NCBI GenBank assembly: GCA_947184155.2
Contig: CAMXCT020003371.1
Coordinates: 1-64,000, forward strand
Source: Cladocopium goreaui
Taxonomy: Eukaryota; Sar; Dinophyceae; Suessiales; Symbiodiniaceae
DNA: 64,000 nt
Direction: 5' to 3'
The translations under genes and the position numbers were made by a program. The notes under the pieces were generated by a model. That model made no database searches. It worked only from the letters and a program-made list of their open reading frames with translations, and had not been told where the DNA came from. Below, in pieces: positions 13,991 to 61,609 of the stretch (positions are counted from its first letter, which is position 1; each line of letters starts with the position of its first letter).

Positions 13991-14218
13991 TGTGAATCGG
14001 AGGTTGTCTCCCCGATTATGTACTGGTACTTGATCTTGAAGTGGGTGTTTCAGTGATGACGGCACAGAAGTCGCGGCTTCAGCATGGCGATACTTTCTTC
14101 CGGTTCCTGCAGTGGTCTTGAGCCAAAGGGGCAAGTTGACGCACCCCTTGGCGGTGGATCCTTGCGGGCTGAATTATGTGGGAGTGTACAGTGGTCCGTA
14201 GCCTACACTCTATTCGCA
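13991..14218 (-). repeat. 3' LTR of the copia element
   Basis: A 228-bp copy of the repeat at 33100-33327 with the same TG and CA termini. It differs mostly by transitions (for example GGG against AAA at about 14044-14046) plus two single-base indels. It is directly preceded in element orientation by a G-rich tract. Confidence 0.95.
14117..14132 (-). promoter_or_regulatory. spliced-leader-like remnant in 3' LTR
   Basis: Identical 16-nt sequence to that in the other LTR, at the matching place. It sits exactly at the border between the well-conserved and the diverged halves of the LTR. Confidence 0.65.
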
Positions 14219-14226
14219 CCCCCCAC
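14219..14226 (-). promoter_or_regulatory. polypurine tract
   Basis: On the element strand GTGGGGGG lies immediately before the TG start of the 3' LTR, the position of the plus-strand primer in LTR retrotransposons. It is short but perfectly placed. Confidence 0.7.
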
Positions 14227-15475: not shown

Positions 15476-16613
15476 TGACGAATCCCTCTTCCCCGATGTC
15501 GTCCTTTTGTTTTGGTCGGCCGATCTCTTTGTAGAGCTCTTTCATCTGTTGTGCAGTTGGTTCGATGAGTTCACCATTTTCATCCTCGCCTAGGTAAGGC
15601 ACCCTTGAGTCCAGGTCCATCCTGAATTTCTGGTTCTGTTGAAAGTGTTTCCATGCCGTCTCGATGTCTCCACAGAAGTTCCGTTGGAATAGTCTGTAGA
15701 TCCTGACGATATGTAATCCAATCTGCAACAGGAGGATTTTGATGAGCTCCGGCTGAGCATCTCCAATTGTGCAAGGCTCGATCGGCAGGACCTTCGATCC
15801 AAACTCAATCCTCTTCATCCACTTGGGGTACTCAATCACTGCATCACGAGCTTCTCCAGCCTCATACTCCTCAATGTTGATTTCATCGACCGCTATTTCT
15901 TCATCGTCATTCTCGTCGGTCGGTTTTCCTTCCTCATTGAGACATTTGTCAACCTCATCTTGTTCTCTGAAGTCTCTTCTCTCATCATTGATGTCGCCCT
16001 TCTTCGAGGCTTGATCATCATTTTCTTCTTCTGGTTGAGGTTCTTGTTCTGGACTCTTCATGGTGACGTCATCATCATCTTGCATCGTCTCGTCGTCAGC
16101 ATTTTCACCTGTCAAATCGATCTTCACCTCCTCCCATGCTTTCTTGACATGGTCTTTGAGGTCTTCTTCTCGATGATGTGATTCGGCACTTGGTATTGTA
16201 GCCACAGTGATCTTGATTCGCTTCCTCCATCCATGACTCACCAAAAATCCTTTGCACATCACACAAATCGATAGTGGTACAGGGGTCTCCATCAGACATG
16301 CGGGGCATAGTCGATGGTCTTCCTTGCTGGGATGATGAGTGACTGCCAACAATGATATTGCATCATTCCAATCCGGATGTCCAGGGAACAATCTGTGAGT
16401 ATGACTGAAGTGACCGGTCTTGATATCGACAAGCTTTCGAAGTTCGTTCAGATCGGGTGATGATTCATCAGGCACAATGTTCCCAATGAGTTTGTCAAAT
16501 CGTTCAATGGTGGCCACCCTCCTTGCTCCTTGCACAGAAAGTACAAGTTGATCTCTTCCCTTTGTGATCATGAGACGGTAGTAGTCCTTCTCCTTCCAAT
16601 CGTATAATACCAC
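15432..16613 (-). CDS. copia accessory ORF, acidic, zinc-ribbon-like
   Basis: A 393-codon frame continuing the previous ORF after a two-base (GT) duplication at about 16611-16615; its first in-frame codon at 16613 is GTG and the frame is open upstream, so it is not an independent start. The first residues complete the last strand of the Tpt1-like domain (VVLYDW). A CPAC...CVMC pair near residues 101-118 suggests a zinc ribbon. Residues about 165-260 are very rich in Asp and Glu. The rest is helical and unfamiliar. No family recognised. It ends at a TGA where the next frame takes over after one extra G in a run of four (15461-15464). Confidence 0.75.
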   Translation of the reverse strand: MVLYDWKEKDYYRLMITKGRDQLVLSVQGARRVATIERFDKLIGNIVPDESSPDLNELRKLVDIKTGHFSHTHRLFPGHPDWNDAISLLAVTHHPSKEDHRLCPACLMETPVPLSICVMCKGFLVSHGWRKRIKITVATIPSAESHHREEDLKDHVKKAWEEVKIDLTGENADDETMQDDDDVTMKSPEQEPQPEEENDDQASKKGDINDERRDFREQDEVDKCLNEEGKPTDENDDEEIAVDEINIEEYEAGEARDAVIEYPKWMKRIEFGSKVLPIEPCTIGDAQPELIKILLLQIGLHIVRIYRLFQRNFCGDIETAWKHFQQNQKFRMDLDSRVPYLGEDENGELIEPTAQQMKELYKEIGRPKQKDDIGEEGFVNAYYGAVVLKRLLI

Positions 16614-19600
16614 ACTGCATCGAATGATTCGAATGGAATTGTTTCTTGGACCAAAATGTGTCCGTCTGCTGATAATCGAGGGGAGAACTTGGCGATGGAA
16701 TCGTACGTGATGTAGATGTAGACAAGATCAGTTTGTTCAATCTTCCTGAATCTCAGCACCGTCTGACTTCGCACGTCCCACGGTGCGAATGGCACGAAGA
16801 ACGTATTGATGCGGTCGCCTCCTCCTCCGGGACGTAGTCCTTCTCTGAAGATTTGAGCGATGTTGTCAAAAGTGGTGCAGTGAAATCCTCCTCCAAGAGT
16901 GTATCCGACTCCCGGGTTCATCTGATAGGAGGTCTTCTTGTCTTCGATGTGCACACCGCCTTGAACACTTGAATGTGCCATAGGGGCACGGATTGCCACC
17001 GGCCAAAGCCAAATCTCTCGATCTGCTGTGCCGATCTCCAACCTCAGTGTGTGTCGTTCAAGTCTCGAGGTCAATCCATCATTGAAGTTGTTCATGACGT
17101 ATTCCAACTCACCTTTTGTGACCTTGAGTCCTAGCACTTGAGCTCGGATTCTTTTCGTTTGCTTGTACTCAGTGAAGATCACTCTCTGGAAATTGTTCCA
17201 CCTCTCAACAAGTATCGGGTAGTTGACATGGGTCGTTCCGGCCAATGTATGTTGGTCTCTCCAAATGGCGTCGTACTTCAAGATCGACTCAACATTGACC
17301 CAACCTGCCTCATCGCATGGTAGTCCACGGTGATTCCGATTGTCCTTGACGCAACCCACGGAGTGGCGTAGCGCTGCATTGAATCTTTTCGACAATTCGA
17401 CTATCCATTGCGGATTCTCCCACTTGTTGCCCATCCACTCATTCTCGCCATATCGATGTACTTTACTCCATCCAAATCCAAGATATTCTTCTCCATTGAT
17501 GCGAGCAAGTTGAAGTGTACCAATGTTGTGGCCATGTGTGAATGGTTGGATGTACTTGAAGTTCCAGTTGTCTCCATATTGTTTCCTTTCTTCAGTAAGC
17601 CATTTCACATATTCATCATGATCAATGGGGTTCCAAGCGTTCAGCTCCTCAATGGTCGGCAAGACAGGCGGGGATTCCTCAGCCGCACGCTCAATCAGCA
17701 TATCAAGCTCATGACGATTCTTCACACCTCGGCTAATTGGGTTGACTTCGACACCATTCACTAAGTATTGTCCTCCTTCTTCACGATCACCAATGTCGTA
17801 CATAAAGGCTGACTGACTGTAGAAGCATTTGGTCACTTCTTCTTTCTCAGTGAATCTGGTTCTTCCCCAACGCTTTCCTCGTGGCATGACGTTCTTTGGG
17901 AGCTTGTCTTTTCTGCCTCTGGTCGCAGCTTTGGATCTTTCTGATGATGATGGGGATTTGGACTTCTGGTCCATGATCAATCTCATGCGCCATAGGGTGT
18001 CCTTCATGTTCTCGTCATCTGGTGTGGTACATTCATCAATGTCATGCATTCCACCACAAATGAAACAATATTGAACACTCGATGCGTCCGCAATCAGCTT
18101 CTCAAATCGATCACGGATGTTCCGCACCTCAGTTCGGCGCTTCTTCGCTTCCGAAGGTTGGCCCCCCATGTCATCTTCCTCCTCCTCAATCTCGATGTCA
18201 CCAGCTCCGGCATCGGTTTCTCCTGAAGTCTGTTCTGCTCGAGGGCCCCGCGCCGTAGGCGTCGTGGTCTCGTCTTCAGGTTCGCCAACTTCATCCTCCT
18301 CCTCATCGCTTGATGAGACCTCAATCATTTCAGGGTGGTCATCGTAGTTGGCTTCCGGGAGCACCGGCATTCTGGTGATCTTCTTCTGCAGGAGTAGGTC
18401 GAAGATTCCCGCTTCTTTCAAGACTGTTGTCACCATGTCGTTCTCGACCGGTGGGATGTATGCTTTCCTGGATCGGTTTCGCTTTGTGTTGATGGTGTCG
18501 GTAGGTCGACATGAACTGCTGAACAGCCAGAACGACTCTTCCAGTCCTGCGAGGCAACTGTCAAGGTTTGCCCCCCATCCACCAAACATAGTAGGGAATT
18601 GAAGACCCAGGTCAAGCATCCCAAGCCAGAATTCGAAAATGTCGCCGACGTACTCAGCTGTTGCGGTTGGATTGAGCATGGATGCGATCTCCTCCTTGGT
18701 CAGCACGGTCTTCATGTAGTCATGATAAGCGACGTTTCCACCATCCCAAAGCAGTCTGTAAAACCATCGCATTCGGTGCATTCCGCCTCCGCAATCCTCT
18801 GTTCGTGTTTCACGTTGCACATTGAATTGGGGTAACAGGTCTCGTCTGCATTTCCCTTTCACCATGTATGCAGGCATTCGGATGGCACCTCGATGTGATA
18901 CCTGTTTGAGTACATCGCTTGCCGTCCTGTATCCTGATAGCATTGCAAGTGTTGCAGTGACCAAAAATCCACGGAGGTCCTTCTCGGCTTCCATTTCTCT
19001 CCAGTCAACGCATTCATTGTAGATGTTGAGCAATCTTGCAGCTACTCTTGCATCCTGTGAAAATTCATCCATCCCAATGTCTTCAGTTCCGTAGATTGCC
19101 GCTCTCGTCCAGTTGCTTGCGCAATTCAGACATCTTGTGCGGTTCTCAGTGCAGGTATTCAATCTCGAATCATTTTTATGAAATCCTTTGCACACATCGC
19201 ACATCAATTCGGAATCTTCGGTTACCTCGACCCAATGCTCATCCACATCTGTCAGGGGCTCCGGGGTGAATACTCCTCGTCGGATGTCTGACCATGCTCT
19301 CCTCTGGACCGCATCTTTCATGTGTTTCATTCCTCCAATGATGTTTGCCGATCCAGCTTGTGCATCTGTGATTTCTCCAGCACGAATGCTGGGAACAATT
19401 CGTGGATGTTCTGTGCATCGTTTGATGGTTTCAATGTCAAATCCGGTGTTCTTCACATGGACGCATTCTTCATTCAGGTCATGGACTGTATCATGATCCA
19501 TTGCACAATGTAAGAAGACTTTCTGTCGCATCAGTGACTTTTCAAGCATAGCCCAAATGACTTCCTTACCTTCACCTTCTTTCCAATAGAAAGGCTCACG

Positions 19601-19828
19601 TCCACAAGCATATATCTGTTTCCAGAATCTTTCATTGGTGGAGTGAATAATGCCCTTTTCCTTCAAGATTCTTGCGAGCTCCTCGGCCATGGATACAATC
19701 GAAGATTGGGACCCAAGAAACCGGGCATCTTTCAGAATGTTGACGAAAATTGGAAGGTGTGCTACTTGGCTGATCTCCGTAATGATCTCCGCCAATTTGA
19801 TGATGAAGTCTGCATTTGGCATCAGCAT
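16568..19828 (-). CDS. copia accessory ORF with Tpt1/KptA-like RNA 2'-phosphotransferase domain
   Basis: A 1,086-codon frame from the ATG at 19828; the frame is open further upstream to about 19960 and joins the previous ORF by a -1 shift. The N-terminal 800 residues are unfamiliar, with Cys clusters near 209-240 and 586-600 and an acidic stretch near 500-570. Residues about 808-1075 match the Tpt1/KptA family in order: LRH (R821, H822), a GWVNVESIL helix where KptA has GWADIDKLI, IRA (R895), FHCTT with H983 in place of the YHGT motif followed by an I...EGL helix, then R1006 and a beta-rich end. These supply the Arg-His-Arg-Arg set plus the HGT-type His. Tpt1 enzymes use NAD+ to remove an internal RNA 2'-phosphate. 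Here the QGHS motif after IRA is altered and about 50 residues are inserted before H983. The domain's end is cut by a frameshift at about 16611. Function in the element is unknown. Confidence 0.85.
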   Translation of the reverse strand: MLMPNADFIIKLAEIITEISQVAHLPIFVNILKDARFLGSQSSIVSMAEELARILKEKGIIHSTNERFWKQIYACGREPFYWKEGEGKEVIWAMLEKSLMRQKVFLHCAMDHDTVHDLNEECVHVKNTGFDIETIKRCTEHPRIVPSIRAGEITDAQAGSANIIGGMKHMKDAVQRRAWSDIRRGVFTPEPLTDVDEHWVEVTEDSELMCDVCKGFHKNDSRLNTCTENRTRCLNCASNWTRAAIYGTEDIGMDEFSQDARVAARLLNIYNECVDWREMEAEKDLRGFLVTATLAMLSGYRTASDVLKQVSHRGAIRMPAYMVKGKCRRDLLPQFNVQRETRTEDCGGGMHRMRWFYRLLWDGGNVAYHDYMKTVLTKEEIASMLNPTATAEYVGDIFEFWLGMLDLGLQFPTMFGGWGANLDSCLAGLEESFWLFSSSCRPTDTINTKRNRSRKAYIPPVENDMVTTVLKEAGIFDLLLQKKITRMPVLPEANYDDHPEMIEVSSSDEEEDEVGEPEDETTTPTARGPRAEQTSGETDAGAGDIEIEEEEDDMGGQPSEAKKRRTEVRNIRDRFEKLIADASSVQYCFICGGMHDIDECTTPDDENMKDTLWRMRLIMDQKSKSPSSSERSKAATRGRKDKLPKNVMPRGKRWGRTRFTEKEEVTKCFYSQSAFMYDIGDREEGGQYLVNGVEVNPISRGVKNRHELDMLIERAAEESPPVLPTIEELNAWNPIDHDEYVKWLTEERKQYGDNWNFKYIQPFTHGHNIGTLQLARINGEEYLGFGWSKVHRYGENEWMGNKWENPQWIVELSKRFNAALRHSVGCVKDNRNHRGLPCDEAGWVNVESILKYDAIWRDQHTLAGTTHVNYPILVERWNNFQRVIFTEYKQTKRIRAQVLGLKVTKGELEYVMNNFNDGLTSRLERHTLRLEIGTADREIWLWPVAIRAPMAHSSVQGGVHIEDKKTSYQMNPGVGYTLGGGFHCTTFDNIAQIFREGLRPGGGGDRINTFFVPFAPWDVRSQTVLRFRKIEQTDLVYIYITYDSIAKFSPRLSADGHILVQETIPFESFDAVWYYTIGRRRTTTVS

Positions 19829-19938
19829 ACGATTTTGTCCTCTGAATAGTGCTGCGAAAGAGATCCAAATATGAACAGTGGCACTTGAGAACGTGTTGGC
19901 GTTGGTTCGTAGGAAAACCAGTGCGTTCGTTGCCAGTT

Positions 19939-22900
19939 TCAGGAATCCTCGGGCTTCTCCAGGGACTCATAGGGAAGTTGGTACACCTTGATGGATGAAA
20001 GACCCATGTTGTTGAGCCCGGCCTCAATGTCATTGATGATTCTCGAGCTAGATCTCGTTTGGTAGGTCAAATCCGTCAAGATGAGAGCTTTGTTGTTTCT
20101 CACTTGTCCTCCCAATTCATCCCATTTGTCCAACCAAGGTTTCCCGATGATGAACTGTCCAATCTTGTTTCCCAACTTCTTGAGCTTGACTCGAATCTCG
20201 CCCTCCACCGTGTCTTCAATGCCCAATGTCAACATGGCTAGGACCTCCGTCACTGGATATCCTTTGCACCTGACAAATTCTGTGGTCGTGATGATGTAGT
20301 GGTAGAGCTTTAGCCATTCGTAGTCATTCTCATTGATCATGTGGGAATCAAGTTGTCCTTCTGTCAGCATGTTGAAAGACAGGGCAGCATGAAATGTCAA
20401 TCTTCTCAAATACTGTTTCCAGATCAAATTGGTTCCATACTTGTGAGTAGTGTGAGGACCCTCTACGATGGATAGCACAAAGTCTTTGCCGGATCGTAAG
20501 AATGCAATTCTCTGTTCTTCACGAGCATAATCTTCGGCAGAATGGAGACGTACTTCCACGGTTGAAGGTTTCCTCCTCTTCATCCAGTCTTCAGTCGGAA
20601 TCCAGTTTTCATCTCTTTCTGGTTCAGTACGACCTTGAGATGTCGCTCCAGGTCCAGATCGGAAAGCTGCATGGGTCGACGAAGATGAGCCTCCGCCAGT
20701 CGATGATCTTGGCATCTTCTTCGGCTGGATGTTCGAACTTTGTGATTGTTGCGATGCCTTTGGTTGTGATCCCTCCGTAGGAGCGGATGTACTCTGGGCG
20801 CTAGGTCCAGTAGATGTGTCATCATTCACCCATGAAGGCTCCTCATTGTTCCAGAAGTCAACTTCGTAGGGTCGTCGTCCGTCATTGAAGACCAGGGGAA
20901 CATCCCAGTTGTCGAAATTGTGCATGCCTCCGGCTGTACCAGCTTCAGTCTCGGTCATCACGGTGGTGAAATCTTTGAGAGAGCTGTGGCAGGCATGACG
21001 TCTTTCCTTCTCAGTATATCTGGCTCCTTCATCGGCAATCGAGACGTTGTATCCATGCCCAATCAGGATTCCCTGAGGAATGTCAAAGACTTTGAGGATC
21101 GAGAACTGAATCTCGGACAGCTCTGCCACTCTCGGCAAGTTTCCATCTCCTCGAGCGCTGGTCTTGTGTCTTTCAAGTGTCGTGCCGAGGGCCAACAAAC
21201 ATAAGAAATGGTTCTGGGCTGCGCTCCTTCCCTTCGGTTGGTTGGTTTCAAAAGCAACCACATCTTTCATCACATCCTGCAAGATGATCTGATCCGATGG
21301 GTTCTGCTCGTTGTGATACCTCAATGCATGTCCTAGGTGCCTCATCTGGATCTCAATCATGTGTTTCATTGCCGTCAAATAGCTATCATTGTCAGATGGA
21401 GACTTCGGATTCACCTTGGTCAACTCGTCCATGACTTTGAAGTATTCGGCGGTCCTTGTCACAGCTAACCATGATGTTGCACTCGGATCTGTGTTGAATG
21501 ACGGTGTTCCTCGATAGATTTGTTTCATGCTTCGGATCTTCGCCTCAGTTTCTGCAGCAGTGGCTTGATCATCAAAAGGTTCGGGAAAGTGTCCTTTGGA
21601 CAATACGATCCAGAGCTCATCAAGTCTGTCGTAGATCTCTTTGTCCATGAAGCGTCCTACAGTTGCATCATCATAAGGGCATCTGCTGGCAAAGACCTTC
21701 ACGAATCTCGACCCTTTTGACAAAAACTCCCATCCTGAACACCCCTTCTCGACGTCCTGCGCTCTCTGCAACAACTTGTATGTAGTGGCTTCACTGGTGT
21801 GTCTGGAGTTCGCAAAGTATGCTGAGTAGACAACTGCAGGCGGCATTCCAAACCTAATCCATTGGTTGGCTGTGTCCTCATCTGAGATCAGTCGAAAATT
21901 CGAACCTCGGGTGTCTCGGAATGGTGATGGAGTCTTGGCTGCAATGGTTCCTTCAGACAATCCCTTCAGCACTCGTAATGCAACGGTGATTCGGCTTCCG
22001 GCGAATTGCCCTACTGAGTTCAGATCATGGGTTTCGGCCATCCCGCTTTGTACAGAAGAAAGTTGCACGGACCGTAGGTCTCGTGACAACTGTTCGAGCA
22101 GCGGAAATAGTTGTACGAACCGTAGGTCTCGTAACAACCAATCGGAGTCGAATTCAGAAAGCGGTCGACACGAAAATGAAAAGTGCCACGAAGAAAGAAC
22201 CGAAGTTGATGTCAATCTCGAAAAGCACCAGTGCAGTAGCGATCGCTCGAACGAAAGGTCAATGGCGTCGAGCTCTCGAGTAGCACATACGGATGTTGCC
22301 ACCGACTTGATTGGGTGACTGCGGATATTCTCGGAATCACGAGACATTTCAGCTTTCAGTTGTTCATCACATGCAAGCGGCTTCCAACGTTTCATCACTC
22401 TGACGTTCACAAATGGACTATTCCTGATTACATGATCATTGATTCCATTCATGATTATCTTGGCTATCCATTTAGTATACACTTGAGTAATGCGAGTTTC
22501 CCTACCGGCACACTCAGCATGGTCATGACGGCGATCACATCTTCTATGAAGCTTTGGGAAAGACACCCCCCATGCTACAATCTTCCAAGGTTTCTTGATT
22601 GGTTTGGGAGTCTCTTGGAACTGCGATTTCAAGCCATACATGCATCCATCAAATTTGTGTTCATGAGATACGGTTCCTTCCACAAGATCAGTCATTCTAC
22701 GGTCCTTCCAGTAGTCACAACCTCTAGGCAACTCAAGCAAGGCTGGTGATCCCATATTGATAAGTTCACTTAGCACTGATGTAAACACTTCCCACATCGC
22801 CCAGAAGATCTGCTTCTTTGCTTCGATGAGTTGTGTCGTTGCTTCGCTTACCCATCGGTTGATTCGGTTCCATGGTGAACCTCCTGTACATGGACCTGCA

Positions 22901-25900
22901 AAGAACATTGAATCAAGTTTGGTCCGAAGGCATCGCCTTGCTTTACTGATTCCGTACGGAGAGAGCATGTCGTCATCTTCAGTGATTGGTACGACATGAA
23001 ACTTCATTTCGTCCTTCATTTTGTTCTGCAAGAACGTAAACCAGTTTCTCTCTTCCGAACATAACAAGACGAAGCATGGGACTGCTTGAGGAACTTCGAT
23101 CAAATTGATTGCAAGGGAAAACTTCGCATACTTTGATGTCATCAAGTCACAAGGTGATTTGGAAAATTGAAATTCCAAAGTTCTGTTTTTCTTTTCTCTC
23201 CAAAGGATTACCGACACTTTGGGATGGTCAACCTCATGTTTGCCTACTTCAATGTGATATTGATAGGGGACAAAAACATCAGTGATGGGAATAGTTTTCA
23301 CGTCATTGCAATTGGTGCATAGCGTGATTACTCCCTGACTCACTTTACAGTTCTTACCTCCATCGATCACTTCAGCATTGGCGAGCACCTTGAATGTCGA
23401 TTTTCCAGTCCAAAATTCATTCAACTTGTTTGTTGATTCATGATTGTCGCCCTTGAATCTCCATATGTCTTTGATCACTCGAGTATTAGTTTTGAACTTT
23501 TGTTCAGTTTCCCTCTCATCACATATGATCCTAGGGTCACAAGGACAGTCTTCGCAATCCTGTGGTACAAAGTTTTGCCTTCTTGGCGTTTTGTGAATTC
23601 GGATCAATGTCTCTTTCCCATCCCACTGCCAATGGTCTTCATTTTTCTTACCTAACACTTGGGATTTTCGGGTGGATTTTACAAACGGAATGTTATCATT
23701 GATGTCCAATTCCGGATGCATATGACATAGGCCAGGTGTTGAAGTGGACTGTGGGTGCCCCTTTTCACTGTGCGAATGCCATCCTTCACCCTCACTCCCC
23801 CCATGAACAAGGCGCATAAGCGTATTGATCACACGTGTGGCTGGCTGAAGGCACTGGTGAATGGATTTCGGGTGTTGAGACGGTGATGTCTGTGCATCTA
23901 AAAACAAGGCATCAACCGAGAACATCAGCATTGGTGAATCGGTCAGATGCTGTACACGGTCATGTGGTGTTGACGCACACGAGTCACGTAGTGAGCTCGA
24001 GTGGGCAGGCGGGGCATGCACGTGCTTTGACGACATCACCCGGTGGGTTGAAGTCGTTGAAACGGATTGTGAAACAGTGTCCGGGATCAACGGCTGCTTG
24101 TTGGGCGAATGGTACTGAAAACACGCTCGTTCAACCCACTTATCAAATCTGATAGCCTGCTCTGGTGGAGATGCACGGTGTTCGACCTTTGTCCAGGCAC
24201 CATTGAGAAGAACCCATGTGGATCTCAATACATCTGGCGGCACAATCAAGCCGGGTGGCTTAGGACGATAAAACACCGGTTGCTTGACGACAAAAATGGG
24301 ATCCATACCTGGCAAGTATTGTAGCTTCTCTTTACTAGTCAAACCCTTCCTATACACTTCTTTCGGCAAATTAGGGGTTTCCGTGTATGGGAAGTTTGGG
24401 ATATCCTCAGTTTTGGATTGGAAAACTTGGCGAGTAGTCATATCGACATCGGTGCTTGGCTGCAACATGTCTAATACTTCTTTGCTCTGCAAGTCCTGAG
24501 GCTCCAACAAGTTGATTAGCATACAAGCTTTCTTCCATGCCATGGGATTCTTGAATCCTTTAGTATGGATATCGGCTGCCATTTTGGCTGTAATTTCATA
24601 GATCAATACAAAATGATCCTTTTGGAAATGTTCATGCATGGAGGCAATGGAAATACCATGTGTGCGCTCCAAATGACGCATGGTTGGATTCCGTCCTGAT
24701 CTGACAACACCAATCATACCTTGATTATCGTCATGGAACAGGAGTTGAGGAAAAACTTTGGCTAAGACTTTCCACAGACTTAGTGCGGGGATTCCTAGAG
24801 TCCTAAGTGCAGTATCTGCAGCCACAATTTCAGCTTCGGGGGTAGAATGACTAACACACCCTTGTCGCTTACTTCCACCAGCAAGTGGGAATCTTGTGAA
24901 CTTACCTTGGACTTGTAAGTGCGATCCTGAAGTTGATCTCAAGGATTGGGCACATCCAGCGAAATCCGCATCTGCAAATAGTCCTAATGATAAATCTTCA
25001 ATTTTGTCTCCGACCCATCCTATCATTTTGAGGGACAATGTGGAATTAACATAACACATTAAGTGATGAAGACGGGCGTCGTCATCCTTTGTCCATTTGG
25101 TCACATTACGTGCCAATGCATTGATGGATCTCAACAGGTCAAACCGCGCAATGCGGGCTGCATACAGCAGCTTCATAAGCACACTAGCTGCATGCGGAGC
25201 TAGATTCCCTCGGCTCAGCGTCTCACTGTCTTGGCCAGGACATGAGTTGCCAGTCTCGGAGAGAGCAGGCATATCTGGATCGAAGGAATGTGCACACCAA
25301 GGACACTCAACTTTGCGTTTTCCATCGGAAGGAGCTCGATACGGGCTGCTTTTCGTTTCCTCTGGAAGGCTTGGAGTTGATACCTTTTTCAATTTTGTGT
25401 CCTTACCAATGATGTCAAGATACTTTTCCACCGATAACTTTAACAATCCTTCCATGTTATAAGTTATGGTCTTGACTTTCTTACCATTATGCAATTGGGT
25501 CTCACCTTGGGATAAAACACATCCTAAGTAAAGTCCCAAGTCGGTTTCGGGTTCAATGCGCAGAACAGTGCGCAGCATTTCCCAACCTTTGGCCAGATTT
25601 TCGGAGGGCCCAGCAAGCTTAAGGTCATCCACATAGATTACCAACAGCAATTTGAGCTCATCATGAAAATACATAGAAGGCCATTCCTCTCCAATGGGCT
25701 TAAAACCAATTTCTTGAACTTTCTTGTCACAATGTTGTTCCCACATCGTGCCTGAATCAGGGTGTCCATACAGGGCTTTGTCGAGTCTTACGACAGGGCG
25801 ACGGAACTTCCAGTACTGTATCTCCGGAGGCCATGCATCAGTGGGTAACTCCACCCAACACAAAGGTCCCTTCAACTTAGCCTGGATGTAAGCCTGAATC

Positions 25901-28900
25901 GCATCTGCCAACTTGACGGAGTGCCCAGGAAGACATCCGTAAAAATCTGCCCATCGTGAGGCTTCGAAGGAAGCAGGGGAATTTCCCAAGTCTTGGAAGA
26001 ATGCTGCCTCCCAATGCTGATTCTTCACCTGATTTCCTAGCAGAACGCCTCTTCCTTTGAATTTTCGACCAGGATTGTCTTCGGACAACTGGTAATTCTT
26101 TTCCACGCATATGCCATGGACCCTGGCCATATGTACTTCCTTTTTGTTCTTCTTGGCCTCTGCAACAACATCGTCATATTCACGAGCCATTGTAAAGTCG
26201 AATACCTCTTGATCACGAAGGCCTTTCCACTCCTTGAGCATTGCCTCTTTGGCCTTTGGGTTAGACTCAATCTCAGCTCTGCCCACAGGTCGTGAAACCA
26301 TTGCGTTGAAAAGTTTGCTCCCAAGGCCTCCTGATGGTATCTTGGTTCGGTGACTTTGATTTGATGCAGAAGTACACGGCATAGTTGGGAATGGAATGTA
26401 CTCATCATCACCAGTGGCTACGTTCTTCACGTTCTTGACGTTAACACATTTGCCATTTTTGATCATTGTCGACTCACCTGGCGTAGCCACGGAGAATCTT
26501 GAAATCTCACCTGACAATGTGCTCCAAACTTCACCACTCCACGATGCTTTTGGGCCACGTCCTTTCTCGACCTCCGACCATTCATCCCATTCAGTGAGAT
26601 ATTCCTCGTCGTCCGGGACGTCAGTAGAAGCATCGGAACATGGACTAGCATCAGCATTCCTCTTCACTTTTCGACAATCAATGTATCGTCTTCCATGTAC
26701 ATCGTCATCATCGACTATGTCGTACAAATCAAGATACGTACTTGTACATGTGATAGGTAAGGTAACTTTGTTCTTCACAACTTCACCAACACCTGCATCG
26801 GATTTCTTTGACTTTGAATGAGAGTCATCCTTCTTGCTTTCATCACCATCTTCATCATCCTTGGACTTCGGCTTGTCCTTGTCTTTCTTTGAATCTTTCT
26901 TCTCCTTCTTCGTTGCCTTCTTCTTCTTTTCTTCGACCAATCTTTTGGCTTTGTCATCGGCCTCTTTCTTCTCCAACTTCTTCTTCTCGGCTTTGAGGAT
27001 GGTGTTCCGGTCAGATTGAGAAAGTTTGCGCCATTCTTCAGGAGAATAGGTCCCTTTGGGACGCAATGACGTTCTGAACATTCGTCTACCGTCATCTCCA
27101 ATCTTGTATGGGTAACCCTTGACATTCAACTTGACCTTCTCACCATCGTCGTTGAGGTATATCTTCCCATCTCCAGCTTTGCCCTTCTTCCAATGGTCTG
27201 GTTGGGCGTCGATCAGTTCCTGTAGGGTCATCTCTTCTGGATCTTTGTCTTTGTCGAAGATATCCTCGGAGTCATCAAGAGGCTTCTTTGAAACTTTTCC
27301 ACCACTTGGTCCAGGTCCACCGTCGTCTCCGTCATCAAGCTCATCGTGGTCATGTTCTTCGTCATCTCCATGAGGCACTTTGGAGGGATCACCATCGAGG
27401 ATTTCTCTTTCTTTCATTCCTTCCAACGTGGTGTTCACCCTCTCATACTCTTGCTTGCATGGAAATGTCAATGGAGTGACCATCTCGACCTTTTCAGTCA
27501 AATGAGGTTTGAGAAGACGGTGTTCGGGTTTGCTAGCGTCGTCACCAAGATTCTGATGTACGAATTCACTCAGAGGCCATACTTTGTATTGTCTTGACCA
27601 ATGCATCCCTGGACCAATGTGATACCCTGCAAACACTCCAGGAATAGAGTCAGGCCCGAACTTATGAAGTTGCCCTGCTTCTCTGGTTTTCGGAGGCTTG
27701 TAGTTCACACGAGCACCATAGGGAATGAGTTTGCCAGCAAATTCAGATCCATGGAGTTTGCACCAAGCGCTCAATTCATCATCGTTGGGTTCTACGTTGA
27801 GTAGATGACATACACAAAGGATTGCTGTTCTCCAGAAACAAGGTGGTAATCCAGCTTCCAAAAGACATGTAGAAGTAGCTGTGAGGATAAATTGGTTCGT
27901 CCTTTCGGCAATTGAATTGGTTTGAGGTCTTCCAGGTAACGAATGATCAATTGGAATCTTCATCTCATTCATGGCTTCAATGAATTGAGGAGCATGATCA
28001 GAGTAGGCCTGTCTGACCTTCTTGGCGCCGATGAACTGTTTCACTGCCCTAACTACATCGTCTTTGGTCATTCTATCAGATGGATAAGCACCATTGATTC
28101 CTGTAAAACAGTCTCTGACAACCAACACTTCCTTCTCGAGGACCAACACGTCATCATGGACTTTGGATGTGTCCACCGCATCAAAGGTAATGAGGTCGCC
28201 AAACTTCTTGAGTTCCCTCTTGTATGCCCCACGACGAGTCTTGAAGTGCTTCATCTTTGCTCGAATGCATGAGTCGCAATATGGATTCTTATATCTGTGG
28301 GTCAACTTGTGATTCAGGCTGTTAGCTTTTCTCTTGAGTGTTCCTCTTTTGGCTACCCTGGACTCACCCTCGACAACATCGATCTCAATGTCATCTTCAT
28401 CACCTTCAGCGGCGTCTTCAGGAGCACCATGACCATCATCTTCAAAGTCAGTCTCGTCCCCAGGAGGTCCGCCAAACGGAGTTCCGGGTTCATATTCGTC
28501 GCCTTCAGGTGGTTCTTCTTCTTCTTCTCCAGGAGTTGCCGAATGTTTTTGCCGGTTCATTGCTCTTCTCTTCTTCTTCACCTTGAGCTTCTTGACGTAT
28601 CGGGAACAATTGTGGTCCTCAATCGATGTCTCAAGACCACTTTCTCCATCGAGATGTACTCTTCGTGAGGGTTGACCAACATCATCAATGTCTTTGAAGT
28701 CATTGAATCCGACTTGAGAATGTGTCAATAGGTCATGGATCTTCGATGCATGATGACATTCATGAGGAGTGCATTCGTATATTCCAAGATCAACGTAGGG
28801 GATGTTGTCATGGATTGTCAAATCGATGCGTTCTCCATTCTTCGTAATCATGAAAGGCATTTGACCAGATGGCCATACAAAGGAGTATCCTTCTTCCATG

Positions 28901-33041: not shown

Positions 33042-33099
33042 CTGTAAGGCCCGCGGCTACCCGCTCGTAGGCTCCGTAGGAGTCCTACGGCTGATAACC
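33042..33099 (-). promoter_or_regulatory. 5' leader with candidate primer-binding site
   Basis: In element orientation GGTTATCAGCC directly follows the CA end of the 5' LTR, where a tRNA primer-binding site is expected. It resembles, imperfectly, the initiator-Met sites of many copia elements. Next comes a near-perfect 17-nt palindrome (CCGTAGGA/TCCTACGG around one base, 33075-33091) that could fold into a hairpin. The gag ATG is at 33041. The tRNA identity is not established. Confidence 0.45.
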
Positions 33100-33327
33100 T
33101 GTGAATCGGAGGTTATCTCCCCGATTATGTACTGATGTTTGGTCTTGAAGTAAATGTCTTCAATGATGACGGCACAGAAATTGCGGCTTCTGCATGGCGG
33201 TACTTTCTTCCGGTGCTGCAGTGGTCTTGAGCCAAAGGGGCAAGTTGACGCACCCCTTGGCGGTGGATCCTTGAGGGCTGAATTATGTGGGAGTGTACAG
33301 TGGTCCGTAGCCTACACTCTATTCGCA
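33100..33327 (-). repeat. 5' LTR of the copia element
   Basis: A 228-bp terminal repeat. In element orientation it starts TGCGAATAG and ends GATTCACA. It matches the left LTR at roughly 93%. The first 102 nt in element orientation have one difference, and the remaining 126 nt carry all the others. It contains a spliced-leader-like segment at 33226-33241. Confidence 0.95.
33226..33241 (-). promoter_or_regulatory. spliced-leader-like remnant in 5' LTR
   Basis: On the element strand the LTR reads GCCCCTTTGGCTCAAG. The 3' end of the dinoflagellate spliced leader is GCCATTTTGGCTCAAG, so 14 of 16 bases match, including the last 11. Spliced-leader relics are known in dinoflagellate genes that passed through trans-spliced mRNA and reverse transcription. 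That the LTR gained it that way is inference. Confidence 0.65.
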
Positions 33328-39424: not shown

Positions 39425-42230
39425 CGACCCCGGCCTTCGCCAAGGCAGGGGCGGCGCCTGGGACCACCGCAGGTGTGGAACTTGTCTTTCTTAGCAACAG
39501 GCCATCCCTATCCATGGCTTTTTATGGGCGTCCAAGCTTGCCGTTTGCCAGCCTTAAAACGCTCCAAACCGCTACAACCCCTCCAAGTCCACTTCCATGG
39601 CTTCTTATGGGCTTCCAGCGCAGGCAAAAGCTACCCCAAGGCCAGATCCATTGCTGTTTCTGGGCGGTCCAGCGTGCCGTTCGCCAGGCATTCGCAGCCA
39701 ACGGGCATCCGAAGGCCACTTCAATGGCTTCTTCTGGGCTTCCAGCGGCTTCCAAGCTTGCCGTTTGCCAAGCCTAAAACCCTCCAAACCCCTAAAACCC
39801 CTAAAAGGCCACTTCAATGGCTTCTTATAGGCTTCCAGCGCCCACATCCATGGCTTTTTATGGGCGTCCAAGCTTGCCGTTTGCCAGGCCTAAAACGCTC
39901 CAAACCCTCCAAACCCCTAAAACCCCACTTCAATGGCCTCTTATAGGCTTCCAGCGCCCACATCCATGGCTTTTTATGGGCGTCCAAGATTGCCGTTTGC
40001 CAGGCCTAAAACGCTCCAAACCCTCCAAACCCCTAAAACCCCTAAAAGGCCACTTCAATGGCTTCTTATGGGCTTCCAGCGGCTTCCAAGCTTGCCGTTT
40101 GCCAAGCCTAAAACCCTCCAAACCCCTAAAACCCCTAAAAGGCCACTTCAATGGCTTCTTATAGGCTTCCAGCGCCCACATCCATGGCTTTTTATGGGCG
40201 TCCAAGCTTGCCGTTTGCCAGGCCTAAAACGCTCCAAACCCTCCAAACCCCTAAAACCTCTAAAAGGCCACTTCCATGGCTTCTTATAGGCTTCCAGCGC
40301 CCACATCCATGGCTTTTTATGGGCGTCCAAGCTTGCCGTTTGCCAGGCCTAAAACCCTCCAAACCCCTAAAACCCCTAAAACCCTAAACCCTAAAACCCC
40401 TAAAAGGCCACTTCGGCGGTCCAGCGTGCCATTGGCCAGCAACAGGCCATCCCTATCCATGGCTTTTTATGGGCGTCCAAGCTTGCCGTTTGCCAGCCTT
40501 AAAACGCTCCAAACCGCTACAACCCCTCCAAGTTCACTTCCATGGCTTCTTATGGGCTTCCAGCGCAGGCAAAAGCTACCCCAAGGCCAGATCCATTGCT
40601 GTTTCTGGGCGGTCCAGCGTGCCGTTCGCCAGGCATTCGCAGCCAACGGGCATCCGAAGGCCACTTCAATGGCTTCTTCTGGGCTTCCAGCGGCTTCCAA
40701 GCTTGCCGTTTGCCAAGCCTAAAACCCTCCAAACCCCTAAAACCCCTAAAAGGCCACTTCCATGGCTTCTTATAGGCTTCCAGCGCCCACATCCATGGCT
40801 TTTTATGGGCGTCCAAGCTTGCCGTTTGCCAGGCCTAAAACGCTCCAAACCCTCCAAACCCTCCAAACCCCTAAAACCCCTAAAAGGCCACTTCAATGGC
40901 CTCTTATAGGCTTCCAGCGCCCACATCCATGGCTTTTAATGGGCGTCCAAGATTGCCGTTTGCCAGGCCTAAAACGCTCCAAACCCTCCAAACCCCTAAA
41001 ACCCCTAAAAGGCCACTTCAATGGCTTCTTATGGGCTTCCAGCGCAGGCAAAAGCCCACATCCATGGCTTTTTATGGGCGTCCAAGCTTGCCGTTTGCCA
41101 GGCCTAGAACCCTCCAAACCCGTAAAACCCCTCAAAGGCCACTTCAATGGCTTCTTATGGGCTTCCACCGCCCACATCCATGGCTTTTTACGGGCGTCCA
41201 AGATTGCCGTTTGCCAGGCCTAAAACGCTCCAAACCCTCCAAACCCTCCAAACCCGTAAAACCCCTAAAAGGCCACTTCAATGGCTTCTTATGGGCTTCC
41301 AGTGCAGGCAAAAGCCCACATCCATGGCTTTTTATGGGCGTCCAAGCTTGCCGTTTGCGAGGCCTAAAACCCTCCAAACCCCTAAAACCCCTAAAAGGCC
41401 ACTTCAATGGCTTCTTATGGGCTTCCAGCGCCCACATCCATGGCTTTTCATGGGCGTCCAAGATTGCCGTTTGCCAGGCCTAAAACGCTCCAAACCCGTA
41501 AAACCCCTAAAAGGCCACTTCAATGGCTTCTTATGGGCTTCCAGCGCCCACATCCATGGCTTTTTATGGGCGTCCAAGATTGCCGTTTGCCAGGCCTAAA
41601 ACGCTCCAAACCCTCCAAAACCAGTGTAAAACCCGTAAAGGCCACTTCAATGGCTTCTTATGGGCTTCCAGTGCAGGCAAAAAAGCCCAACATCAATGGC
41701 GTTTTATGGGCGTCACATCCAAGCTTGCCTTGAGAGCTAAAACCCTCCAAACCCCTAAAACCCCTAAAAGGCCACTTCAATGGCTTCTTATGGGCTTCCA
41801 GCGCCCACATCCATGGCTTTTTATGGGCGTCCAAGATTGCCGTTTGCCAGGCCTCCAAACCCCTAAAACCCCTAAAAGGCCACTTCAATGGCTTCTTATG
41901 GGCTTCCAGCGCCCACATCCATGGCTTTTTATGGGCGTCCAAGATTGCCGTTTGCCAGGCCTAAAACGCTCCAAACCCTCCAAACCCTAAAACCCCTAAA
42001 AGGCCACTTCAATGGCTTCTTATGGGCTTCCAGTGCAGGCAAAAGCCCACATCCATGGCTTTTTATGGGCGTCCAAGCTTGCCGTTTGCGAGGCCTAAAA
42101 CCCTCCAAACCCCTAAAACCCCTAAAACCCGAAACCCTAAAACCCCTAAAAGGCCACTTCGGCGGTCCAGCGTGCCATTGGCCAGGCATTCGCAACCAAC
42201 AGGCATCAGGCATCAGGCGTTCAAGCCTGC
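39425..42230. repeat. GC-richer satellite with telomere-like blocks, 2.8 kb
   Basis: More than 20 units of about 93-126 bp built from the modules GGCCACTTCAATGGCTTCTT, CCACATCCATGGCTTTTTAT, GGGCGTCCAAGCTTGCCGTT and a block of CCAAACCCCTAAAACCCCTAAAA. A higher-order duplication is visible: 39493-39860 recurs almost unchanged at 40438-40805. Exact CCCTAAACCCTAAA occurs near 40380. All long frames across it on both strands are repeat artefacts. Confidence 0.92.
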
Positions 42231-45184
42231 CGTTTACTACTTTTTTTCTTCACAACGCCGTCCTTGACAGAAAACTTGTTCCCACACACCGTTCGATGGT
42301 CAATTTGCCCTGTCTTCACGTCACTGGCCACATTCCCTTTGCAAGCGGGGCAAACGTACACATACGCTTTTTCCTTCACAACGCCATCCTTCACAGAAAA
42401 CTTGTTCCCACACAGCGTTCGATGGTCGATTTGCCCTGTCTTCACGTCACTGGCCACATTCCCTTTGCAAGCGGGGCAAACGTAAACATACGCTTTTTCC
42501 TGCACAACGCCATCCTGCACAGAAAACTGCTTCCCACACACTGTTCGATGGTCTATTTTCCCTGTCTTCACGTCACTGGCCACATTCCCTTTGCAAGCGG
42601 GGCAAACGTAATTATACGCTTTTTCCTGCACAACGCCATCCTGCACAGAAAACTGCTTCCCACACACTGTTCGATGGTCTATTTTCCCTGTCTTCACGTC
42701 ACTGGCCACATTCCCTTTGCAAGCGGGGCAAACGTAAACATACGCTTTTTCCTGCACAACGCCATCCTTCACAGAAAACTGCTTCCCACACACTGTTCGA
42801 TGGTTTATTTTCCCTGTCTTCACGTCACTGGCCACATTCCCTTTGCACGCGGGGCAAACGTACACATACCCTTTCGCAACGACCTGCGCGTCCCACACCT
42901 GGAAACGGTTACCGCATGCGCGCCGGTGATTTACCTGGCCCGTCCGTATACTGCTCCTCACAGACTTTTTGCAAGCGGGACAAACATATCGGAAACTCTT
43001 GCCTTTCCTCGCTGTTTTGACTTCATCTGCCAGCAACGTCACCGTCTCCGTCGCGCTGCCCTTGCTCTGCTGCTTGCAGCTCATTTCTGCCTGCCTGTCT
43101 GTGCTTCTTTCCGTTCCGCCGTCTTCTCTACGTTGCTTTGCTTGCGGCTGGGCTTCCTGCATTTGGGCCGTGTCCTTTGTCTTCCGTTTTCGTTCCACGC
43201 TGGCCCAGACATCAGTCGTCGCCCGCACCGCCCTCTGCCTTTCGTCGCTGTCTTCCCGTTGGCCATGTCCATCTTCAGGCCCGTCTGTGCTCACTTCTGT
43301 TCGGTTCTCTTGTTTGGGATGCTTTGCCTTCGGCTCTGCGTCCTTCATTTCGGAGCTCTCCTGTTCTCTGTTGCGTTTTCTTTCCGCGATGGCGTCCCAG
43401 ACACCGGCGATGGCACGTACTTTTTTTTCTTCCGCTGCCGTCCTCGCGACTTTTGCCTGCGTTGCAGCTACCCGCTGTACCGCTTTGCTGATGCTTCTCC
43501 GGGGAATGGGGCACTTCCAGCAGTTGCTACAGACTTGGTCGCCATTACAAGAACGATGTTGCGCCAGCCACGGTTCAAAAGCGCACGCTGCTTGCTTCAC
43601 CTTGCAGACGCTGCATCTCCACAGGCCCCATGCTTTACCCGAACAATCTAAACACACTCTACCGCCCGTGCGTGCTCGTCTCCACGCCCCGGCAGAATAT
43701 TTCTTTTCGTCCTTGCGCGTATTGCAAACACTACACACTTGCGTCTGCTCGCACGTCGCACAAATGCGATAAAATGTGGCTTGTGGGGTTGCATGTTTTG
43801 CGTTGAATGCATCTTCCTGTTTCCAGGCCATGCATGCCATGCATTGCCACGGCATCTGCCTCTCAACGTGCCGAAGAATGCATTCTTTGCATACTCTCGC
43901 CGCATCTGTGCGTTTCCATCGACCAGCCGTGAATGCAGAAGCCGGCTTTGATTCATTACATTCTTTGCATTCCCTTTCGTCTCGGTATTTCGCTCGCAGC
44001 GCGCTCCAATCCATTTTTTCACCACCCCAGAACCGCAACAGCAATTCCCGCCCTATTTTTGCGCCTTTTTGAAAAGGTGCTGCAGGGAACGGTCTGTACA
44101 CAAACAAACCATGCCTGTCTTGGACCCGCGTTAACGCAATGTAAGCTGTCAATGGGTCGCCTGCTTCCCCAATGTGCATGTCCATGACAACGCCTTCTTT
44201 GCAAGTTTGCCCTTGGGCTGCGTGAGCGGTGGTTGCAAACCCTGGAGCCAATGGAAACTGCTTCCGCGTCACACGGAGAACTGGCCGCCTTCGCCCCTTG
44301 TCCAAATACCACGGTTTCTTTTGCGGCGCGACAGGAAACACATTGTCTTCGTCAATCCCCTCGACACGCCAGGTGGTCTTGGTCTTGAACCGGACCAAGA
44401 TGCACGCCGGCAACTCGTTCCAAATCTGCGTCCCTTCTTCACGCGCGGCTCCGACGGCATCGGCCGGCCAAACCCAGCCAACAATCTCCCCAGCACACCC
44501 CCGTCAAATTCCACGGCTGCGATCCAAGTGATCTGCGGCAGCCACTGGCATACCAAGGCACAGTGGCAAAACACCGTACAAGGACCCACAGTCCTGATCG
44601 TGTCGCTGCAGCCAACTCAATTTTTCTTTGCCCAGATCGGGCTTCTCACGCAAAGCCATGCTTGATATTCTATCTTTTGCAATGGCATAGTGCAGCACCT
44701 GTCCTTTTTCTGCGGCCCAAGCTTTTGCTCGCAGTTTATTCACATGATACTTCACGGCATTTGTGGCGAAAATAGCTTTTGCACCGGCGAACTTCTCGGA
44801 CGCCGCGGCGGCACTATCTGCAACTCTGGCCTTGGACCGGCGCTCGGTTCTGCACATGTCGCATTCCGACCGTGAGATAGCATCTGGCGCTGCTCTTCCC
44901 GAGAGTAACTTTTGGCACGTGGCGTGGTTGCACTCTAGTCTGTGGCCGTTCCAGCTGCCAGGTACGCGCGTGTGACAGCCATGCAAAAATGCGTGGTTCG
45001 TCTCGGACAACGCGCCGTTTCGTACTTCGTTTTGTAGGCTCTGCAACCATATATCTTGGGTACGCTTGCACTCGACCAGTTCTGTCACACCATGGATTCC
45101 ATCCGAGGTTTCGCCCCAGACTAACTCCTGCCCGCGGATGGTATGGGCTACTTTCTTCGTTTTGCATTGCGTCAACCATGTTCA
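42221..45184 (-). pseudogene. PIF1/RecD-like helicase C-terminal half with zinc-ribbon repeats, truncated
   Basis: The minus-strand frame from about 45184 to 42221 is interrupted by one in-frame TGA at 44504-44506. The upstream 223 codons contain CRTERRS, VKYHVNKLRA, ALREKPDL and LQRHDQDCG motifs that I associate with dinoflagellate PIF1-like proteins. Downstream are superfamily-1 helicase motifs V and VI (TTAHAAQGQT, AYIALTRV). Motifs I-III with the Walker A loop are missing upstream, so the gene is 5'-truncated; no ATG begins it. After the helicase come about five Cys-rich motifs (CKEC, CMAC, CSVC, CLDC, CSNC), a charged linker, and six tandem 42-residue units with CPAC...H..CG spacing that suggest zinc ribbons (42230-42990). 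The last four codons and stop lie in satellite-derived sequence. Either a decayed gene or a mobile-element helicase remnant. Confidence 0.85.
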
Positions 45185-46122: not shown

Positions 46123-46534
46123 CCCCCAAATGGTTTTGCATATAATGGGTTTTCATGTTTCACTCTGCTTACCAATCAAGGCAGACGTGGATTTGGGATC
46201 AACAGAATCAACACTTAAAACACCTGCGCCCAAGCTTCAGTCCGCTTAGCGCCAAGCCACTTCAGACAAAGTTCGCTGCATTCTTGGGGACCAAAATGAC
46301 TTGAGGCGTGAGTCGGCTAGGACGGGATACATGGTGGTTTTTACACCCCTCGTTTTGTTGTGCAAACCCTGTGTTTCAAGTCACACCTGCCTTTTTTTGC
46401 GTGTATGGTAGGTGAAGGTATATATATATATGTGGGATCATGTGCTACATCATACTCCCCAGGTTGATTGCCAGTACCCTCCCTCCGATTAGGGGGGTCG
46501 GCGGCACCTGGGCGCTAGCCCATTTTATTATTGC
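46123..46534. other. intergenic, no supported gene
   Basis: About 400 bp of unique sequence with a short TA run near 46420. If the GIY-YIG-type gene is real, its intron may start here. Confidence 0.45.
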
Positions 46535-47595
46535 TGGTAAATCTATCCCATTAAAATAATATCATTAAATCCCATTAAACCTCTATTACTGCTGGTAAAT
46601 CTATCCCATTAAAATATCATGAAGTACCATTAAACCTCTATTATTGCTGGTAAATCTATCCCATTAAAATATCATTAAGTCCCATTAAACCTCTATATTA
46701 TTGCTGGTAAATCTATCCCATTAAAATATCATTAAGTCCCATTAAACCTCTATTACTGCTGGTAAATCTATCCCATTAAAATATCATGAAGTACCATTAA
46801 ACCTCTATATTATTGCTGGTAAATCTATCCCATTAAAATATCATTAAGTCCCATTAAACCTCTATATTATTGCTGGTAAATCTATCCCATTAAAATATCA
46901 TTAAATCCCATTAAACCTCTATTACTGCTGGTAAATCTATCCCATTAAAATATCATGAAGTACCATTAAACCTCTATTACTGCTGGTAAATCTATCCCAT
47001 TAAAATATCATTAAGTCCCATTAAACCTCTATCATTGCTGGTAAATCTATCCCATTGAAATATCATTAAATCCCATTAAACCTCTATTACTGCTGGTAAA
47101 TCTATCCCATTAAAATATCATGAAGTACCATTAAACCTCTATTACTGCTGGTAAATCTATCCCATTAAAATATCATTAAGTCCCATTAAACCTCTATCAT
47201 TGCTGGTAAATCTATCCCATTAAAATATCATTAAGTCCCATTAAACCTCTATTATTGCTGGTAAATCTATCCCATTAAAAGTCCCATTAAACCTCTATAT
47301 TATTGCTGGTAAATCTATCCCATTAAAATATCATTAAGTCCCATTAAACCTCTATATTATTGCTGGTGAATCTATCCCATTAAAATATCATTAAGTCCCA
47401 TTAAACCTCTATTATTGCTGGTAAATCTATCCCATTAAAATATCATTAAGTCCCATTAAACCTCTATTATTGCTGGTAAATCTATCCCATTAAAATATCA
47501 TGAAGTACCATTAAACCTCTATTGTTGCTGGTAAATCTATCCCATTAAAATATCATTAAGTCCCATTAAACCTCTATTTTTGCCGGTATATCTTT
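46535..47595. repeat. 55-bp minisatellite, about 19 copies
   Basis: Units contain GCTGGTAAATCTATCCCATT, then AAAATATCATTAAGTCCCAT, then TAAACCTCTATTA. Nineteen copies plus a degenerate last one occur with an average period of 55 bp. Variant units (TCATGAAGTACC against TCATTAAGTCCC) recur in mixed order, suggesting multi-unit duplications. Confidence 0.93.
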
Positions 47596-58436: not shown

Positions 58437-58452
58437 GGAAAAAAGACTAAAC

Positions 58453-58689
58453 CTAGCAAGAGAAAGCTGGTGACATGCTGTGAGAGGCTCCCACTAAAGC
58501 TTCTGCTGCCATGGTGCGCACCTTGGAAAATGTGTCAGTTGCCACGGGAAAAATTTCTGTGCCATAGAACATCGCTGGGTATATGCTCATTCGCAACACA
58601 TACTCCTTGACTGTGAGGTTGTATGGCAATTGTGCCAACCTACCAAGTCGGTTGAGGCCATTTTCAAGTCTGGTTTTTCTGCTTCCCAA
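58453..58689 (-). pseudogene. LINE ORF2 fragment after RT (thumb/linker)
   Basis: A 78-codon frame, -1 relative to the RT frame, that reads naturally from the RT's end: RLGRLAQLP, KEYVLRMSIYPAMFYGTE and a final ASHSMSP. In related LINEs this follows the RT palm. The overlap with the RT frame at 58587-58689 shows the RT frame has run into a nonsense tail after the indel. It ends at a TAG just before the RNase H frame. Confidence 0.75.
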
Positions 58690-61496: not shown

Positions 61497-61609
61497 GTGC
61501 TACGTCTTGGTCCCGGGTTTTTGGCTTCACCTATGCGAATGGCACAGCCCAAAGTGGGCGATGTTTGGTCCCTGTGACGGAGCTGCTGTGGCTGCGGCAG
61601 GTGGTGCAT
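61445..61609 (-). pseudogene. LINE ORF2 N-terminal segment with GEAKNPGP
   Basis: In the frame starting at 61609 the sequence reads CAIRIGEAKNPGPRR followed by NIVLANPTSLANKKDTL, the usual entry into the endonuclease domain of this LINE type. The endonuclease itself continues in the -1 frame, so an indel lies near 61430-61445. It overlaps the C-terminus of ORF1. Confidence 0.75.

Follow-up and report, generated by a model that had tools for sequence, protein, structure and literature searches.

Cellular Tpt1/KptA/TRPT1 proteins (PF01885) have a two-lobe fold and share the motifs LRH, IRAxxGH and yHgT together with C-terminal IP motifs. KptA is also found inside the polyproteins of replicating elements, a picorna-like virus and a nidovirus (PMC9503650). 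Accessory-enzyme capture by retroelements is known from dinoflagellates, where long interspersed nuclear elements and DIRS elements of Symbiodinium carry a DNA methyltransferase (PMC5890265), and from bdelloids, where long terminal repeat (LTR) elements carry a GDSL esterase and a DEDDy exonuclease (PMC5408684). LTR elements make up about 12% of Polarella genomes (PMC11453091). Here we describe a Tpt1/KptA domain that sits inside an LTR retrotransposon of the Ty1/copia type in the dinoflagellate Cladocopium goreaui. The element spans 19,337 bp on the minus strand of a 64,000-nucleotide stretch (contig CAMXCT020003371.1 of assembly GCA_947184155.2, positions 1 to 64,000), referred to below in its entirety as the window.

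The window domain resembles the cellular enzymes in fold and motifs but forms part of a retrotransposon polyprotein and, within the window clade, has about 70 extra residues. It is like the viral KptA in its polyprotein setting, but its host is an LTR retroelement and the association extends across a whole lineage. The Symbiodinium elements differ from it in both the enzyme captured and the element class, and the bdelloid elements in the enzymes. Ordinary Ty1/copia elements share its LTRs, primer site, polypurine tract, protease and RVT_2 domain, but the window element is 19.3 kb long and runs about 3000 residues past the reverse transcriptase (RT)-RNase H region, through a domain that we call PCTGGS, the Tpt1 domain and a zinc ribbon. 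In the literature searched, without preprints and most subscription papers, we found no Tpt1 domain in any retrotransposon; the initial annotation of this DNA likewise named no described LTR element with it. Tpt1 is a new kind of captured enzyme for a copia LTR retrotransposon, and the finding adds RNA end chemistry to the dinoflagellate retroelement toolkit.

Identity and conservation of the Tpt1/KptA domain

The initial annotation proposed a Tpt1/KptA-like domain from the letters alone, and the strings it quoted (LRH, GWVNVESIL, RIRAQ with R895, FHCTT with H983, R1006, and VQETIPF near the end) all lie in the minus-strand frame 19828-16568. Profile searches and the predicted fold bear the proposal out. 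The window domain matches PF01885 at E = 2.2e-6 (28.3 bits, curated cut-off 26), and a profile of seven window-clade members (A4) aligns in hhalign with one built from three retroelement Tpt1 domains of more canonical type (A1) at E = 3.8e-14 with probability 98.2; searched against the PDB, A1 in turn hits yeast Tpt1 (E = 2.2e-17). An AlphaFold model of the window domain (predicted local distance difference test score 69.8, predicted template modelling score 0.62) contains both the N-terminal lobe and the ADP-ribosyltransferase (ART)-fold lobe of solved Tpt1, and its structure matches at ranks 1-14 are all Tpt1/KptA. A chance motif is ruled out by the PF01885 match, the A4-A1 match and the fold ranks.

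Several results pull the other way. Single-sequence matches to PF01885 are marginal: two relatives, P0001 (25.1 bits) and P0166 (25.5 bits), fall under the cut-off of 26, P0106 and P0093 have no PF01885 match, and two of seven window-clade members miss Pfam E 0.1. A phmmer search of the PDB with the window domain alone returned nothing at E 10, and the A4 profile by itself reaches only E = 0.021 there. The NCBIfam KptA equivalog NF002013 scores 11.9 bits where 231 are required, and on this sequence we would not file the domain as an orthologue of cellular KptA.

The catalytic set of Tpt1 is Arg-His-Arg-Arg. Because many of the 103 domain-search matches are near-copies, we counted residues over 14 representatives with less than 75% identity, chosen after 17 of 153 alignment rows with less than 55% of columns had been dropped; the rows of P0166, P0172 and P0176 are not among them. 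The codons of R821, H822, R947, H983 and R1020 were confirmed in the window sequence, and their conservation is given in Table 1. The initial annotation read R821, H822, R895 and R1006 as the catalytic set, of which the first two stand. The third catalytic Arg is R947, which lies within VAIRAPMAHS, the counterpart of the family's IRAxxGH motif; R895 lies about 50 residues earlier, though it too is conserved (14/14). R1006 is kept in 13/13 representatives with a residue there, yet it cannot be assigned as the fourth Arg, since R1020 is equally conserved and profile alignments put neither clearly on the GMR Arg. H952 is kept in 13/14, and an alignment of ten shows no substitution at R821, H822, R947, H952, H983 or T985. 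The ambiguity over the fourth Arg counts against our best explanation, given below, as does P0172, where LRH has become LRG and IRAxQGH has become CAVQGH, with H and R lost; its domain may be inactive.

This active site is maintained in a domain that otherwise diverges strongly. Between the window and P0124, identity is 0.81 over RT and 0.30 over Tpt1, and across nine sequences Tpt1 identity is correlated with RT identity (P0143 excluded; Mantel 0.78, 7/5000 permutations). The window-clade domain is longer than that of P0176 (271 vs 203 residues), with much of the excess just before IRAxxGH. Among the stretches measured in the three post-pol frames, the ART lobe is the most conserved to P0106 (0.79) and P0129 (0.37), and to P0124 (0.39) it is about level with the first 120 residues of the second frame. 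Near-invariant active-site residues at low overall identity speak for selection, and since the active site is kept among relatives, the domain probably helps the element to copy itself. We are highly confident of the Tpt1/KptA identity together with selective retention of the domain.

Linkage to reverse transcriptase and distribution

A protein search with the domain region gave 103 matches and one with the pol region gave 76, in 43 of which our own domain profile detects Tpt1; the profile was built from seven seeds including P0166, P0172 and P0176, which match by construction. An RT-RNase H region (>450 residues) and at least part of Tpt1 share one frame in nine proteins: P0106, P0124, P0129, P0135, P0143, P0162, P0166, P0172 and P0176. 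P0143, counted as present, ends its frame with just the initial portion of the domain, and the domain of P0135 is cut off by the end of its frame. Copia pol and Tpt1 on one open reading frame, an arrangement that the initial annotation suggested looking for, is therefore found in eight relatives plus one partial. The member sequences listed for P0106, P0124, P0129 and P0135 number 608, 240, 283 and 1086, respectively. Pfam alone finds PF01885 in P0172 (E = 1.5e-17, 64.7 bits) and P0176 (E = 1.4e-25, 90.8 bits), beside RVT_2 scores of 31.2 and 20.9 bits, respectively just and well below the cut-off. Because P0162 carries the source label Symbiodinium sp. KB8 and EukProt sequences are among the domain-search matches, this giant copia lineage with Tpt1 most likely belongs to dinoflagellates.

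In an RT tree of 36 rows, 12 could be scored for Tpt1, of which 10 have it and two lack it; the other 24 are unscored, because of an early frame end or doubt over where the domain would lie, and several long branches meet. The domain is found on both sides of the midpoint root, which serves for drawing only. Capture by the element, as first proposed, accords with the presence of the domain in related elements, but its occurrence on distant RT branches does not look like a recent catch. Nor do all relatives have it, which counts against the explanation given below: P0138 and P0173, whose frames run past the usual place, gave no Tpt1 match with filters off, so Tpt1 is not needed by every such element. 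P0161 runs 2352 residues past RT without a Tpt1 match and, though left unscored, may be a third such case; P0157, also unscored, runs 1700 residues past RT with no match. P0138 groups with the part-bearing P0143, so that loss of the domain is the simplest reading for P0138, the rest being unsure through long branches. Our best explanation as a whole, to which we give somewhat less than an even chance, is that the lineage took up Tpt1/KptA long ago and has since retained it as a functional polyprotein domain in 10/12 scored rows, where it would use NAD+ to clear 2'-phosphates from RNA ends, with the tRNA primer as the favoured substrate.

What the domain may do for the element

Drosophila copia has a primer site that fits a tRNA anticodon loop, and Ty5 is reportedly primed from an anticodon loop as well. 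Primer sites fitting tRNA anticodon loops have been described for fungal Copia families, for which the available text mentions no Tpt1 (PMC10886601). The putative primer-binding site of the window element is similar to these: taken as its complement, CGGCUGAUAACC, it is consistent with an anticodon arm that has U33, A37 and A38 and in which G30-G31 and C39-C40 make up the stem. Counting both strands, the window contains GGTTATNNGCC once, and ARAGORN found no tRNA genes in it. The site differs by one base from what we take to be the initiator tRNA-Met (iMet) primer site, so that tRNA-Ile or an altered iMet is a possible match.

RNA cut by metal-independent nucleases has 2',3'-cyclic ends; 2H enzymes open these to a 2'-phosphate, which KptA removes (PMC9503650). 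We propose that the Tpt1 domain would be made and carried together with RT in an element primed by a half-tRNA cut in the anticodon loop. A metal-independent cut would leave a 2',3'-cyclic phosphate, a phosphodiesterase would open it to the 2'-phosphate that is the Tpt1 substrate, and the domain would use NAD+ to strip this phosphate from the RNA end and so make the end extendable. That the domain removes RNA 2'-phosphates of any kind seems an even call. Since the primer site resembles an anticodon-loop site, the tRNA primer would be the favoured substrate, a choice we hold only tentatively, and repair of cut genomic RNA would be the next candidate. The full proposal, that the element carries its own primer-healing enzyme, with a tRNA half as primer and an NAD+-dependent Tpt1 clearing the phosphate from its cut end, is on balance rather unlikely to hold in every step. 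Weighing against it, only a single copy has shown the primer site, which is one base off the iMet-type site, and in the window frames Pfam gave no match for an RNA ligase, a 2H phosphoesterase or a macrodomain; without a 2H domain there, the partner that opens the cyclic end would have to be the host's. If true, primer healing would tie reverse transcription to NAD+ and would offer a concrete explanation, open to test, of how a tRNA that has been cut could become an extendable primer. It would also suggest a role for Tpt1 beyond tRNA splicing, where the targets of the enzyme are unsettled (PMC8883491).

In the main rival reading, the domain would instead add ADP-ribose to phosphate ends of the RNA or complementary DNA of the element, as an NAD+-derived cap, or else to a host target, and its rapid divergence would be a sign of host conflict. 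Tpt1 enzymes are indeed able to modify 5'-phosphorylated RNA and single-stranded DNA ends (PMC8883491), and both the far greater divergence of Tpt1 than of RT and the extra length before IRAxxGH would suit such a role. But the residues that are kept, including the N-lobe LRH, are those of the phosphotransferase family, and divergence is just as rapid in other accessory parts of the polyprotein, which means that its pace is no special property of the Tpt1 domain. We consider ADP-ribosylation a serious contender that is nonetheless unlikely. A second alternative is RNA repair against host defence, in which the enzyme would heal tRNAs or element RNA cut by host nucleases. KptA in the viral polyproteins noted above and in jumbo phages has been read as RNA repair (PMC9503650, PMC7824862), and 29 of 50,697 phage records match the P0176 domain, at 27.5-31.7% identity among the 15 matches listed. 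Pfam found no ligase in the window polyprotein frames, however, so a host ligase would be needed to seal the healed ends, and we regard this alternative as improbable.

Chance capture of a Tpt1 gene that now rides along without function would fit the splitting of the window copy into five frames, the two relatives without the domain and the catalytic residues lost in P0172. Such a plain relic is rejected, as very unlikely, on the aligned sequences: the active site is nearly invariant in the 14 representatives despite low overall identity, and conservation is higher in the ART lobe than in the stretches next to it. A host gene, adjoining or nested, or an assembly join, as the separate frames of Tpt1 and RT in the window might suggest, is scarcely credible and is rejected, because P0106, P0124, P0129 and P0135 each have both on a single frame and the window LTRs enclose both.

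Architecture of the element

Two LTRs, a primer site, a polypurine tract and RVT_2 were all found (Table 1), and we file the element as copia-type on these grounds; the LTRs enclose RVT_2 and Tpt1, as expected from the initial placement of the domain in a copia element. The LTRs are identical in 212/229 aligned columns, with TG/CA ends in both. No target-site duplication was seen at the flanks, which read AAATA on the left and TATAT on the right, inside AT-rich repeats.

Table 1. Features of the copia-type element, in window coordinates
Feature	Position	Strand	Remarks
5' LTR (element sense), 228 bp, TG...CA	33100..33327	-	direct repeat with 13991-14218
Putative primer-binding site GGTTATCAGCC	33089..33099	-	directly 3' of 5' LTR; sequence only
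N-terminal polyprotein frame, 300 aa	32139..33041	-	84-92% match to starts of P0116, P0145, P0179
Gag-pol frame, 4077 aa	19939..32172	-	open reading frame and Pfam
RT-RNase H region, pol aa 1929-2575	24448..26388	-	stretch used for RT tree
PCTGGS domain, pol aa 2990-3262	22387..23205	-	conserved in alignment A3 of 9
1086-aa frame continuing polyprotein, holds Tpt1 domain	16568..19828	-	joined to pol end and following frames in P0001, P0106
Tpt1/KptA RNA 2'-phosphotransferase domain, aa 805-1075 of 1086-aa frame	16604..17416	-	PF01885, PDB profiles, fold
Catalytic R821-H822 (LRH)	17363..17368	-	R 12/13, H 13/13 representatives with residue there
Catalytic R947 (IRAxxxH)	16988..16990	-	14/14 representatives
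H983 of FHCT motif (family yHgT)	16880..16882	-	13/13 representatives with residue there
R1020 (PWDxRS), candidate fourth Arg	16769..16771	-	13/13 representatives
Next polyprotein frame, 393 aa	15432..16613	-	aligns to P0001 aa 1208-1600
Zinc-ribbon-like CPxC...CxxC, in frame 16613-15432	16254..16307	-	3' of Tpt1 domain
C-terminal polyprotein frame, 244 aa	14741..15475	-	aligns to P0001 aa 1607-1839
Polypurine tract GTGGGGGG	14219..14226	-	directly 5' of 3' LTR (element sense); sequence
3' LTR (element sense), 228 bp, TG...CA	13991..14218	-	direct repeat with 33100-33327

Between its LTRs the window copy is split into five frames. P0124, a single frame of 5944 residues, aligns from pol residue 19 through into the last window frame, and P0106 (4558 residues) does so from pol residue 1307; by these alignments, which run across the frames, the five are pieces of one polyprotein, broken in the window copy, with long open frames existing elsewhere. 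Pfam identifies CCCH zinc fingers, an aspartyl protease and RVT_2 in the gag-pol frame, the last at pol residues 2125-2223 (PF07727, E = 1.3e-8, 35.2 bits, cut-off 31.6); the frame also contains the PCTGGS domain and an RNase H region placed by alignment with relatives only. Between protease and RT, Pfam gave no integrase match in the window frames; pol residues 1270-1600 are conserved (0.97/0.61/0.59 to three relatives).

The CPxC...CxxC motif after the Tpt1 domain also occurs in P0001, P0093, P0106, P0124, P0129 and P0176, with variants in P0172 and P0166 (CKVN...CLSC in the latter), and P0138 keeps it though it has no Tpt1. The PCTGGS domain follows the RT-RNase H region in the window, P0106, P0124, P0129, P0135, P0138, P0166, P0172 and P0176, and is present in both Tpt1-less proteins, P0138 and P0173. 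Its invariant residues in A3 are CTGGS, E, C, YW, GCM, C and H, and it has no significant Pfam or PDB sequence match; its PC motif and the FCCG/VCCG start in P0172, P0173 and P0176 presumably recall C5-methyltransferases. Between the CTGGS domain and Tpt1 (or the C-terminus), P0172, P0173, P0176 and P0166 have a stretch with DS and GND/GNE motifs, joined in the first three by DxWH-like motifs; a similar stretch is perhaps also present in the window at about 19500-20500 on the minus strand. We take these motifs to suggest an SGNH hydrolase, for which Pfam gave no match to the stretch. An SGNH-type hydrolase is known from other retroelements (PMC5408684). A related copia polyprotein, P0170, carries a dUTPase domain (PF00692, E = 3.6e-12).

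Other features of the window

Elsewhere in the window, three non-LTR retrotransposon frames lie at 56709-63965 on the minus strand, two of them with matches to endonuclease, RVT_1 and RNase H. A tandem array at 42242-42874 has five copies of a 126-bp unit within a 730-residue frame with weak zinc-ribbon-type Pfam matches, and another at 46526-47593 has 19 copies of a 55-bp unit. Complex arrays at 39712-42127 have a repeat unit of about 116 bp and contain AAACCCTCC/AAACCCC motifs.

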